Positions 23,693 through 42,838 of a stretch of 64,000 nucleotides of DNA are shown in pieces; position 1 is the stretch's first letter, and each line of letters begins with the position of its first letter. The stretch covers positions 1 through 64,000 of the forward strand of contig NZ_BOPA01000026.1 in the NCBI RefSeq assembly GCF_016863515.1, written 5' to 3'. The position numbers were made by a program, and so were the translations under genes. This DNA comes from Micromonospora gifhornensis (GTDB lineage Bacteria; Actinomycetota; Actinomycetes; Mycobacteriales; Micromonosporaceae). The notes beneath the pieces were generated by a model. It searched no databases. It saw only the letters and a list, made by a program, of their open reading frames with translations, and had not been told where the DNA came from.

Positions 23693-23708
23693 GTTACTGC
23701 TGGGTAAC
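23693..23708. promoter_or_regulatory. GTTACTG-CTG-GGTAAC palindrome, operator candidate
   Basis: A 16-bp sequence with 5-bp inverted arms GTTAC / GTAAC around a six-base centre, 144 bp upstream of the EtfD-like gene. It matches the palindrome upstream of the FadE5-like gene at 40940-40955 at 13 of 16 bases. This size and symmetry suit a TetR-family repressor, though the regulator is not in the window. Confidence 0.55.
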
Positions 23709-23851
23709 CTTGCGCGTAGGCTGCACTGCATGACCGAGCGGGAAGGTCATCGACCGGTCCGGTTCGAGGTGCGCGGCGGCTGAGGTCGCGTACGCACCTC
23801 TGACCCGGTCGCCGAGCCGCTCGCCAGGCAGCAGACCGGGAGGCCAACTCG

Positions 23852-26050
23852 ATGGGCAGCGTCCAGATCGTCACCACGATCCTCGCGGCCGCCATCACCG
23901 CCGTTGCGGTGTGGCTTGCGGTGCGCGCGGTCATGCAGATGACGGCCGTGATCCGGCTGGGTCAGCCCGACCCGTCCCGGTTCGACGACAAGGCCAGCCG
24001 CACCAGAACGATGCTCGCGGAGACCGCCGGGCACACCCGGATGCTGCGCTGGAGCGTGGTCGGCGCGGCGCACTGGTTCGTGATGGTCGGCTTCATCGTG
24101 CTGTCGCTGCTGGTGCTCGAAGCGTACTTCGAGGTGGTGTCCCCGACCGGCGGGCTGCCGCTGATCGGCGGCTGGGCGCTCTACGGCCTGGTCACCGAGT
24201 GGATCGGCATCCTGGGCATCGTCGGCATCGTGGTGCTGATCGCGATCCGGCTCGCCAACCGGCCCACGAAGGCCGGTCGCCGCTCGCGGTTCACCGGGTC
24301 GACGATGTGGCAGGGCTACTTCGTCGAGGCGGTCGTCCTCGCCGTACTGATCATGGGTTTCCTGATCCGGGGCTTCAAGGTCGCCACCGATCACTTCGAG
24401 TACCCGACCTGGGCCACCCCGCTCAGCCACGCGGTCGGGTCGGCGCTGCCGGACTGGGAGTCCGGGGTCAGCGTCGCCGCCCTCATCAAGATCGCCATCT
24501 CGATGACCTGGCTCATCGTGATCTCGCTGAACGTGACGATGGGTGTGGCCTGGCACCGCTTCCTGGCCTTCCCCAACATCTTCTTCAAGCGCAAGCCGGG
24601 GGCGGCCGGCTCCGGCCTCGGCCCGCTGCGGCCGATGATGAGCGACGGCAAGCCGCTGGACTTCGAGGAGGCCGACCCCGAGAAGGACCAGTTCGGGGTG
24701 GCTCAGGTCGAGCAGTTCACCTGGAAGGGCCTGCTGGACTTCAGCACCTGCACGGAGTGCGGTCGGTGCCAGTCACAGTGCCCGGCCTGGAACACCGGCA
24801 AGCCGCTGTCGCCGAAGCTGCTCGTGCTCAGCCTGCGGGATCACGCGTACGCCAAGGCGCCCTACCTGCTGGCCGGCGGCGGCAAGGACCTCACCGGCGA
24901 GGAGAAGGCCACCGCCGCGCAGCTCGCCCACGTCGACGTGCTGGCGCTCGCCGAGGCGGAGAAGCCGCTGATCGGCGACGCCGAGGCCGGCGGCGTGATC
25001 GACCCGGACGTGCTCTGGTCGTGCACCACCTGCGGTGCCTGTGTCGAGCAGTGCCCGGTGGACATCGAGCATGTCGACCACATCGTCGACATGCGGCGTT
25101 ACCAGGTGCTCATCGAGTCGAGCTTCCCCTCCGAGGCCGGCGTGATGCTGCGCAACCTGGAGAACAAGGGCAACCCCTGGGGTGCGCCGCAGAACACCCG
25201 GGAGGACTGGACCAAGGGCCTCGACTTCGAGGTGCCGCGGGTCGGCGAGGTCGACGACTTCGAGTACCTGTTCTGGGTGGGTTGCGCCGGTGCGTTCGAG
25301 GACCGGGCCAAGAAGACCACCCGCGCGGTGGCCACGCTGCTGAACGAGGCGGGCGTCTCCTTCGCCATCCTCGGTGAGGGCGAGACCTGCTCGGGTGACC
25401 CGGCCCGCCGCATCGGCAACGAGTTCGTCTTCCAGATGCTCGCCCAGCAGAACGTGGAGACCCTCAACGAGGCGTTCTCCGGCCGCGAGAAGGCCAAGCG
25501 GAAGATCGTCGCCACCTGTCCGCACTGCTTCAACACCCTGGGCAACGAGTACGGCCAGCTCGGCGGCGAGTTCGAGGTGGTGCACCACACCCAGTTGCTG
25601 GCGCATCTGGTCGCCACCGGCAAGCTCACCCCGGTACAGCCGGTCGACGGCGGTGTCACGTACCACGACCCGTGCTACCTCGGGCGGCACAACCGGGTCT
25701 TCACGCCGCCGCGTGAGGTGCTGGGCAGTGCGTTGGGGGCCGGCGAGATCACCGAGATGCCGCGCAACAGCGAGCGCTCCTTCTGCTGCGGCGCCGGTGG
25801 CGCGCGGATGTGGATGGAGGAGCGGATCGGCAAGCGGATCAATGTGGACCGGGTCGAGGAGGCCATGTCCACCGGGGCCAAGACCATCGCCGTCGGCTGT
25901 CCGTTCTGCTCGACGATGCTCACCGACGGAGTGAACGGCAAGGGCGCCGGCGAGCAGGTCGAGGTCGTCGATGTGGCGAGCGTCCTACTGCGGTCGGTCC
26001 GGCCCGAGCAGGCCCGGGGCGCCGAGGAGGGCGAGCCGGTCGGCAGCTGA
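23852..26050 (+). CDS. EtfD/FadF-like membrane Fe-S oxidoreductase
   Basis: A 732-residue protein. Five transmembrane helices (near 6-30, 67-93, 108-132, 150-172 and 206-236) form a nitrate-reductase-gamma-like haem or quinone module. A double 4Fe-4S domain follows, with CTECGRCQSQCP from C300 and CTTCGACVEQCP from C391. Two CCG (heterodisulfide-reductase D) modules complete it, with CPHCFNTL, HDPCYLGRHNR and CCGAGGARMW (C645-C646). Mycobacterial EtfD (Rv0338c) with this architecture reoxidises electron-transfer flavoprotein and feeds electrons from acyl-CoA dehydrogenases to the respiratory chain. The same job is likely here, given the operator shared with an acyl-CoA dehydrogenase gene. A generic oxidoreductase name would also fit. 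Confidence 0.85.
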   Translation: MGSVQIVTTILAAAITAVAVWLAVRAVMQMTAVIRLGQPDPSRFDDKASRTRTMLAETAGHTRMLRWSVVGAAHWFVMVGFIVLSLLVLEAYFEVVSPTGGLPLIGGWALYGLVTEWIGILGIVGIVVLIAIRLANRPTKAGRRSRFTGSTMWQGYFVEAVVLAVLIMGFLIRGFKVATDHFEYPTWATPLSHAVGSALPDWESGVSVAALIKIAISMTWLIVISLNVTMGVAWHRFLAFPNIFFKRKPGAAGSGLGPLRPMMSDGKPLDFEEADPEKDQFGVAQVEQFTWKGLLDFSTCTECGRCQSQCPAWNTGKPLSPKLLVLSLRDHAYAKAPYLLAGGGKDLTGEEKATAAQLAHVDVLALAEAEKPLIGDAEAGGVIDPDVLWSCTTCGACVEQCPVDIEHVDHIVDMRRYQVLIESSFPSEAGVMLRNLENKGNPWGAPQNTREDWTKGLDFEVPRVGEVDDFEYLFWVGCAGAFEDRAKKTTRAVATLLNEAGVSFAILGEGETCSGDPARRIGNEFVFQMLAQQNVETLNEAFSGREKAKRKIVATCPHCFNTLGNEYGQLGGEFEVVHHTQLLAHLVATGKLTPVQPVDGGVTYHDPCYLGRHNRVFTPPREVLGSALGAGEITEMPRNSERSFCCGAGGARMWMEERIGKRINVDRVEEAMSTGAKTIAVGCPFCSTMLTDGVNGKGAGEQVEVVDVASVLLRSVRPEQARGAEEGEPVGS

Positions 26051-40854: not shown

Positions 40855-40939
40855 GGCGCCGGCCATGTTCGATCGTGTGTAATTGCCGTCACTTCGGCGA
40901 GCGACTTGTCGCTGTCTACCCGTGAGTAATACAGTCGGG

Positions 40940-40955
40940 GTTACTGATCGGTAAC
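40940..40955. promoter_or_regulatory. GTTACTG-ATC-GGTAAC palindrome, operator candidate
   Basis: A 16-bp inverted repeat 27 bp upstream of the FadE5-like start codon, where a repressor would block the promoter. It is nearly identical to 23693-23708 upstream of the EtfD-like gene. Confidence 0.6.
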
Positions 40956-40981: not shown

Positions 40982-42838
40982 ATGACCCACTACAAGAGCA
41001 ACCTTCGGGACCTCGAGTTCAACCTGTTCGAGGTGTTCGGGGCGGACCGGGCGTTCGGCCAGGAGCCGTACACCGACCTCGACGTCGACACGGCGCGGAC
41101 CTTCCTCGCCGAGATGGACCGCCTGGCACGCGAGGACCTGGCCGCCAGCTACACCGACAGCGACCGCAACCCACCGGTCTTCGACCCGGCCACGCACACC
41201 GCGCCGCTGCCGGAGTCGTTCAAGAAGTCGTACCAGGCGTTCATGGACTCCGAGTTCTGGCGGCTGGACCTCCCCGCGGAGCTGGACGGCAGCAACGCAC
41301 CCCGGATGCTGTGGTGGGCCCTCGCCGAGCTGGTGCTCGGCTCGAACGCCCCGATCTGGATGTACGCCTCCGGCCCGTCCTTCGCGCACGTGCTGCGCGT
41401 CGAGGGCACCGAGCGGCAGAAGAAGTGGGCCAAGCTCTTCGTCGACAAGCAGTGGGGCTCGACGATGGTGCTCACCGAGCCGGACGCCGGCTCGGACGTG
41501 GGCGCCGGCCGGGCCCGCGCCATCCCGCAGCCGGACGGCTCGTGGCACATCGAGGGCGTGAAGCGCTTCATCACCTCCGGTGAGCACGACCTCAGCGACA
41601 ACATCGTCCACTACGTGCTGGCCCGCCCGGTCGGCGTGGAGGGCGTGGGCGGCCCGGGCACCAAGGGTCTGTCGCTGTTCGTCGTGCCGAAGTACCACTT
41701 CGATGAGGAGACCGGCGAGCTGGGCGAGCGCAACGGCGTCTACGCCACCAACGTCGAGCACAAGATGGGCCTGAAGGTCTCCAACACCTGCGAGCTGACC
41801 TTCGGCGAGCACGGCGTGCCCGCCAAGGGTTGGCTGATGGGCGACAAGCACGACGGCATCCGGCAGATGTTCATGATCATCGAGTACGCCCGGATGCTCG
41901 TCGGCACCAAGGCGATCGCCACCCTCTCCACCGGCTACCTGAACGCCCTGGAGTACGCCAAGAACCGGGTGCAGGGCGCCGACCTGCTCCAGTCGACCGA
42001 CAAGACCGCCCCCCGGGTGACCATCACCCACCACCCCGACGTACGGCGCTCGCTGCTGCTGCAGAAGTCGTACGCCGAGGGGCTGCGGGCCCTGGTCTGC
42101 TACACCGCCTCCTGGCAGGACAAGGTCGCCATCGCCGAGGCGGCCGGTGACGAGAAGGCCACCAAGCTGGCCAAGCGGGTCAACGACCTGCTGCTGCCGC
42201 TGGTCAAGGGCGTCGGCTCGGAGCGGGCGTACGAGCTGCTCGGGCACGAGTCCCTGCAGACCTTCGGTGGCTCCGGCTTCCTCCAGGACTACCCCCTGGA
42301 GCAGTACGTCCGGGACGCCAAGATCGACACCCTGTACGAGGGCACCACGGCGATCCAGAGCCTCGACCTGATCTTCCGGAAGATCGTCCGGGACAACGGC
42401 AAGGCCCTGATGGCGGTGGCCGCCGAGATCCAGGAGTTCATCACCAGCGAGGGCGGCAACGGCCAGCTCAAGCAGGAGCGCCAGGCGCTCGGCAAGGCGC
42501 TGGCCGAGATCCAGACCATCCTCGGCGTGCTGACCGGCTGGCTGGGCGAGGCACAGGGCGGCGACACCCGCGCGCTCTACAAGGTCGGGCTCGCCAGCCG
42601 GCGGTTCCTGCTGGCGATCGGTGACCTGGTGGTCGGCTGGCTGCTGCAGAAGCAGGCGGACGTGGCGCTGAAGGCGCTGGCCGGTGAGGTCTCGGCGGCG
42701 GACAAGGCGTTCTACACCGGCAAGGTGGCTGCTGCCCGGTTCTTCTCCCGCGAGGTGCTGCCGCGCATCGGCGCCGACCGGCGCATCATCGAGGGCACCG
42801 ACCTGGAGATCATGGACCTCCCGGAGGAGATCTTCTGA
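40982..42838 (+). CDS. acyl-CoA dehydrogenase, FadE5-like
   Basis: A 618-residue protein. The start [20 protein letters not shown], then [20 protein letters not shown], is characteristic of mycobacterial FadE5 (Rv0244c type). The FAD-binding and substrate blocks are [54 protein letters not shown] and the late [15 protein letters not shown], which carries the catalytic glutamate. A C-terminal helical extension distinguishes it from short ACADs. It catalyses alpha,beta-dehydrogenation of broad-chain acyl-CoA, passing electrons to ETF. A palindromic operator precedes it; the ETF-reoxidising partner is the gene at 23852. Confidence 0.93.

Follow-up and report, generated by a model that had tools for sequence, protein, structure and literature searches.

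The window analysed here comprises the first 64,000 nucleotides of contig NZ_BOPA01000026.1 of Micromonospora gifhornensis. It carries two copies of a palindrome, one before a gene encoding an EtfD-type membrane Fe-S oxidoreductase and one before a gene encoding a FadE5-type acyl-CoA dehydrogenase. The pattern GTTACY-N4-RGTAAC is a conserved operator, and the two palindromes are probably operators of one regulon that comprises FadE5, the electron transfer flavoprotein (ETF; EtfBA), EtfD and FadAB, with a FasR-type TetR protein encoded on another contig (C10) as its most likely regulator. Its range extends to further classes of the phylum Actinomycetota, which the first-pass annotation of the window, made from its letters alone, had not foreseen.

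The etfD gene (23852..26050, forward strand) encodes a protein of 732 amino acids with the domains two-[4Fe-4S] (Fer4-type) and CCG. Its best match in the PDB is full length (9ojn, residues 7-756, E 6.9e-225), an entry cited in a paper on EtfD (PMC13083937). The fadE5 gene (40982..42838, forward strand) encodes 618 amino acids with full-length similarity to the mycobacterial FadE5, including the Acyl-CoA_dh_C tail (PDB 6kse, named FadE5, E 6.7e-249). These matches uphold the identities first given to both genes. In mycobacteria, a reconstituted FadE5-ETF-EtfD path carries electrons from acyl-CoA to the menaquinone pool (PMC13083937).

Both palindromes lie where the first-pass annotation had placed them. 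The one before etfD (GTTACTGCTGGGTAAC, 23693..23708, forward strand) ends 143 base pairs (bp) before the ATG at 23852, and the one before fadE5 (GTTACTGATCGGTAAC, 40940..40955, forward strand) ends 26 bp before the ATG at 40982. Each consists of perfect, inverted 5-bp arms, GTTAC and GTAAC, flanking 6 bp, and the two are identical at 14 of 16 positions, not at 13 as first counted. The pattern proposed in the first pass, allowing two mismatches, matches the window four times (one match being the fadE5 site read on its opposite strand), far above the 0.28 expected by chance, and none of 100 shuffles reached four. A second, weaker operator copy (TCTACCCGTGAGTAAT, 40915..40930, forward strand) is found 25 bp upstream of the main fadE5 operator. 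Such a copy (TTAC-N6-GTAA with at most one mismatch) occurs 23-26 bp before the main site in 36 of 53 fadE5 promoters of the family.

Promoters from a set of 61 genomes of the same family were scored over 300 bp upstream, with Y at position 6 and R at position 11. A fadE5 gene was found in 56 genomes, and 55 promoters (the best copy per genome) were read; the 56th (G027), whose match starts at residue 22 at a contig edge, was left out. The operator is exact in 32 of these, present with at most one mismatch in 53 and with at most two in all 55. The mirrored pattern gave 0, 0 and 1, and shuffles a mean of 0.04 of 55 at one mismatch. For etfD, present in 60 of 61 genomes, 42 promoters yielded 25 exact sites, 37 with at most one mismatch and 38 with at most two; two of the misses (L107, L116) belong to matches that start off the start codon, and their promoter windows may be misplaced. 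For etfB (58 of 61 genomes), 17 of 30 promoters have the site at one mismatch or fewer and 28 at two or fewer. The first-pass annotation had named loss of either site in close relatives as evidence against it, and the site is kept before both fadE5 and etfD. Among 276 other upstream regions near fadE5, etfD, fasR, fadA, etfB and TetR1 (a TetR gene discussed below), none has the site at one mismatch or fewer, which rules out AT-richness of intergenic DNA as its source. The exact 16-mer occurs at 67 places in 26 family genomes, against one place for the control, with at least one place in 25 of the 26 (none in G035). In four genomes (G034, G060, G036 and G031) it occurs just twice, before etfD and before fadE5.

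Across the whole source genome (6.8 Mb), GTTAC-N6-GTAAC with at most one mismatch was found at 51 places, against 14 for the control pattern read backwards; thus, about one in four of these sites may be fortuitous. We listed and read 50 of the places, and 40 of them are intergenic according to our own gene caller. When exact arms were allowed any gap from 0 to 14 bp, the 6-bp gap accounted for 6 of 17 places, and the control gave 7 over all gaps. The first pass had predicted further sites, before fadA, fadB, fadD, etfAB and a TetR gene; further sites were found before three operons. One, GCTACTGACAGGTAAC, lies about 120 bp before etfBA, and another, GTTACTGACGGGTAGC, precedes fadAB (a thiolase gene, then one for a 689-amino-acid FadB-like protein) by about 37 bp. 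The third, GTTACTCAGGCGTAAC, lies between TetR1 and a divergent operon encoding an SCP2 protein, an acyl-CoA dehydrogenase and an acyl-CoA ligase.

The operator is also present well beyond the family. In 80 named actinobacterial genomes (Salinispora, Micromonospora, Actinoplanes, Nocardioides, Streptomyces, Frankia, Lentzea and others), the fadA promoter has the exact site in 14, a site with at most one mismatch in 72 and with at most two in 78. A wider sample of the phylum held 148 genomes, 32 of which, including the source genome, encode FadE5 at E ≤1e-150. The 14-bp core TTACY-N4-RGTAA occurs at 89 places in 13 genomes of the phylum, compared with 6 for the control, and in mycobacterial genomes many core places, among the matches listed, precede other genes. 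In the distant genome G161, all six core places precede fadE5 (two places), etfD, etfB, fadA(B) and a TetR gene; the encoded proteins share 52% (fadE5), 44% (etfD), 50% (etfB), 63% (fadA) and 42% (TetR) identity with those of the source genome. Its relative G170 has seven core places: two precede fadE5, one each precedes etfB, fadA and the TetR gene, and two are unexplained (L260, L275). Exact core sites also precede fadE5, etfD (two) and etfB in G094, and fadE5 and etfB in G144 and G185.

The TetR gene that carries the core site in G161 and G170 is FasR-like, and its counterpart in the source genome lies on the minus strand of contig C10 (361239-361826), with a DUF3107 gene after it. The C10 protein has a TetR_N domain (Pfam PF00440) and is the best match in the source genome to the NCBIfam FasR model NF053731 (264.6 bits). 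Its closest PDB matches are 6o6p (E 1.5e-56) and 6o6n (E 2.8e-55), both structures of the FasR paper (PMC7382501), and the next is 3f1b (2.3e-18). The helix residues AGVSKPVLYQHF, which include Tyr77 of the published DNA-binding helix, are identical in 13 of 13 aligned FasR-type proteins. The tunnel and signal residues L98, L106, F123 and V163 are replaced by I, M, Y and I in the C10 protein, all conservative changes. A FasR-type protein is present in all 17 family genomes tested, and a site lies before fasR itself in four of five deep-lineage genomes. The fatty-acid-oxidation regulon suggested in the first pass is supported, and its likeliest regulator is this FasR-type protein on another contig, which was unforeseen, rather than TetR1, the TetR gene that bears a similar site.

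Operator and FasR occur together in the phylum. Leaving the source genome aside, 31 genomes of the phylum sample encode FadE5. Of these, 21 have a match to FasR that scores 169 bits or more, and all 21 have the fadE5 site (TTAC-N6-GTAA, at most one mismatch, within 300 bp before a fadE5 copy), 20 of them at the copy read first and G125 at a second copy only. In the remaining 10, the FasR match reaches no more than 113.4 bits or is missing, and the site is found in 0 of 10. The published FasR DNA, a crystal oligonucleotide (PMC7382501), was located with at most three mismatches in four of five mycobacterial-type genomes (control, one place, in G094), in all four before a fatty acid synthase gene (PF22690). 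In these four promoters, of which GTTACCCGTGCGTAGAACTCGCCAGTAAC is an example, the outer half-sites are GTTACC and AGTAAC, as in the operator here. The shared half-sites support a link to FasR without proving it.

The operators lie over predicted core promoter elements. For fadE5, a predicted -35 element (TTGTCG, 40906..40911, forward strand) and -10 element (TACAGT, 40930..40935, forward strand) agree with positions seen across the family, where, counted from the operator start, TTGNNN lies at -34/-33 in 29 of 53 promoters and TANNNT at -10/-9 in 33 of 53 (29 of 53 when a tie is assigned to the site further upstream). Based on these positions, the operator covers the predicted transcription start. 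For etfD, the predicted -10 element (TAGGCT, 23717..23722, forward strand) and TANNNT at +23 to +25 in 30 of 37 promoters would put the operator over the -35 region. Before etfB (17 of 17) and fadA (64-65 of 72), TANNNT lies at +12, with the operator over the predicted -10, though here two of the three fixed letters of TANNNT belong to the palindrome. Because these are blocking positions, repression is the likelier mode. For M. gifhornensis we infer that a FasR dimer would bind the operator over the core promoter and repress when long-chain acyl-CoA is low. Long-chain acyl-CoA would fill the FasR tunnel, FasR would leave the DNA, and the dehydrogenase, the ETF and the membrane outlet would be switched on together. 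In published work, acyl-CoA with a chain of C16 or longer disrupts the binding of FasR to DNA (PMC7382501). In liquid culture, the SCO6027-SCO6026 (fadAB) promoter of Streptomyces coelicolor was detectable with oleate only (PMC5539140); the Streptomyces fadA sites reported here are from other species.

Several other explanations were weighed. The motif is short, its one-mismatch set in the genome includes many unrelated genes, and the control itself gave 14 places, yet the conservation counts and controls above refute a chance resemblance between the two palindromes, which we consider next to impossible. TetR1 was a rival candidate; it is encoded on the same contig, 45 kb past the end of the window and beside the SCP2 operon. 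A GTTAC-N6-GTAAC site lies between it and the SCP2 gene in the source genome (G000 C26:109115-109130, L005:1501-1516), a site with at most one mismatch is kept there in 24 of 30 family loci (L122-L151), and TetR1 is itself FasR-like (91 bits). However, all 24 of these sites end in GCGTAAC (form STTACTSnnGCGTAAC), unlike the form before fadE5 and etfD. TetR1 is also patchy, being present in 40 of 61 family genomes only, and 16 of the 17 TetR1-less genomes read keep the fadE5 site at one mismatch or fewer. Furthermore, the one FasR-like gene of G161 is not TetR1, yet that genome has all five targets. Given its different operator form and patchy presence, TetR1 was rejected as the regulator and is improbable in that role. 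The FasR-like paralogue beside a desaturase gene (C5:98148) is not needed either, because each of G011, G013, G014, G161 and G178 has just one FasR-like match (E ≤1e-20); the family f14, whose FasR-like matches score 113.4 bits at most, has no site.

Some other protein, TetR or otherwise, might bind the operator while FasR merely co-occurs with it. Only FasR-like candidates were compared, FasR binding is deduced from sequence, and within the family fasR shows no visible sign of regulating itself. Against this stand the sites before fasR in the deep lineages, the joint loss of site and FasR in three families and the half-sites shared with the published FasR DNA, and we consider another regulator unlikely, though worth keeping in mind. 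FasR could also bind the operator and activate these genes. It is described as an activator of fas-acpS in mycobacteria (PMC7382501), and the etfD operator lies over a predicted -35. Nevertheless, the operators over the predicted start (fadE5) or -10 (etfB, fadA) are placed to block the polymerase, and since acyl-CoA removes FasR from DNA, activation would mean that acyl-CoA shuts off the genes that burn it. This is very improbable.

Control by a FasR-type repressor, the explanation that we prefer, also has points against it, among them the activation of fas-acpS just mentioned. The C10 protein scores 264.6 bits against a curated cut-off of 330 for NF053731, which is passed by five mycobacterial-type genomes only; hence we call it FasR-type, not FasR. 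No site was found in the fasR promoter in 16 of 17 family loci read. The sites before etfB are weaker (0 of 30 exact), and fadE5 of G013 and G014 has the site at two mismatches only. As eight of the 10 genomes that have neither FasR nor the site come from one family, they represent three families rather than ten independent cases, and G068 encodes FasR (230 bits) with no fadE5 at the threshold. In the published FasR DNA, the arms are 19 bp apart, versus 6 here, and the inner copies are degenerate; neighbouring dimers are reported to be juxtaposed on the DNA (PMC7382501). Finally, in cultures on solid medium, the SCO6027 promoter was also expressed constitutively in the presence of glucose (PMC5539140).

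The palindrome or related forms were also seen beside other genes. In relatives, the exact site recurs before genes for a thioesterase-like DUF4442 protein (L159, L173, L176, L187) and an enoyl-CoA hydratase (L177, L182), both recurring neighbours, and once before a gene resembling crotonyl-CoA reductase (L170). GTTACC-N4-GGTAAC, or a form that differs by one letter, is seen repeatedly before genes for secreted SGNH/NocE-like proteins (L006, L013, L183, L189, L191, L194; names by eye) and may belong to a different regulator or to a lipase branch of the regulon. In the source genome, further single sites precede genes for an SDR dehydrogenase, a BASS-like transporter, secreted esterase-like proteins and aceE (some names by eye). 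The last of these, GATACTCATCAGTAAC (G000 C2:137094-137109, L010:1501), lies between aceE-like and YjbQ-like genes, 128 bp from each; the aceE-like gene encodes a Transketolase_N domain, and if the site proved conserved it would tie pyruvate dehydrogenase to the regulon. Another site, GCTACGTCACCGTAAC (G000 C5:99896-99911, L016:1501), lies 120 bp before a desaturase-like gene near the FasR-like TetR at C5:98148 (115.5 bits), which is perhaps the desaturase regulator. A palindrome with a 3-bp gap, GTTACGSCGTAAC, has exactly four copies in the source genome (C6, C21, C28, C30) and is perhaps the site of another regulator. Between divergent FabG4-like and FadA2-like genes of mycobacterial-type and Streptomyces-type genomes (L276:1918, L288:1685, L274:7514, L251:2057; names by eye) lies a C/G-flanked form (CTTACTCCAGAGTAAG and similar). 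This form, also present in the source genome as CCTACTGGTGAGTAAG (L052 near 16107), is possibly the operator of another FasR-like paralogue.

No master regulator of actinobacterial beta-oxidation, whose enzymes are many and redundant, was found described in the literature searched. An operator shared by ETF, EtfD, FadE5 and FadAB names a candidate and predicts that the electron source and its outlet are induced together. If the candidate is correct, FasR, which in that literature is described only as an activator of lipid synthesis, would be recast as a two-way switch, of relevance to oil storage in Streptomyces and relatives and to the use of lipids by mycobacteria. The literature searched, which excludes most subscription papers and the founding FasR paper, yielded no paper joining the Rv3208-type FasR with these genes. 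A text search found neither the literal operator letters nor a paper naming Rv3208 together with Rv0244c (fadE5). A study of mycobacterial TetR regulators gives the motif for the Rv3208 region as a logo (PMC4482099). In papers on S. coelicolor, the name FasR denotes SCO2386, a MabR-type protein of a different family (PMC5541348); two papers contain that name together with fadAB.

Among known systems, the mycobacterial FadE5-ETF-EtfD path supplies enzymes that share the operator here; the text of the paper mentions no TetR, FasR, promoter or operon, and its four matches to 'regulat' were seen in the reference list (PMC13083937). The nearest described regulator is FasR (Rv3208), with 89 of 195 aligned residues identical to the C10 protein, like half-sites (GTTACC/AGTAAC) and long-chain acyl-CoA as its published ligand. 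Its described role differs in that it activates fatty acid synthesis from a longer site, whereas here degradation genes have an operator over the promoter. It is about an even question whether FasR was an ancestral actinobacterial repressor of degradation, controlling fadE5, etfD, etfBA and fadAB through the conserved 16-bp operator, that mycobacteria alone later recruited also as an activator of fatty acid synthase I (FAS I).

FadR of Bacillus and PsrA of Pseudomonas are TetR-type repressors of fatty acid degradation, and they resemble the present case in combining a TetR protein, a palindromic operator and fatty acid genes. The C10 protein, however, scores 52.2 bits against the Bacillus FadR model versus 264.6 against FasR, and the regulon here includes EtfD. 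FadR of E. coli is a GntR-type protein, unlike the C10 protein, which is TetR-type (PF00440) and not a member of that family. It is a dual regulator (PMC3460868). The likeness would be that a single acyl-CoA sensor represses the genes of degradation and also, in mycobacteria, activates those of synthesis; because the same protein activates fas-acpS there, a single sensor could drive synthesis one way and degradation the other. If FasR was the ancestral repressor, it would be the phylum's counterpart of E. coli FadR, and as one long-chain acyl-CoA sensor it would turn synthesis off and burning on.
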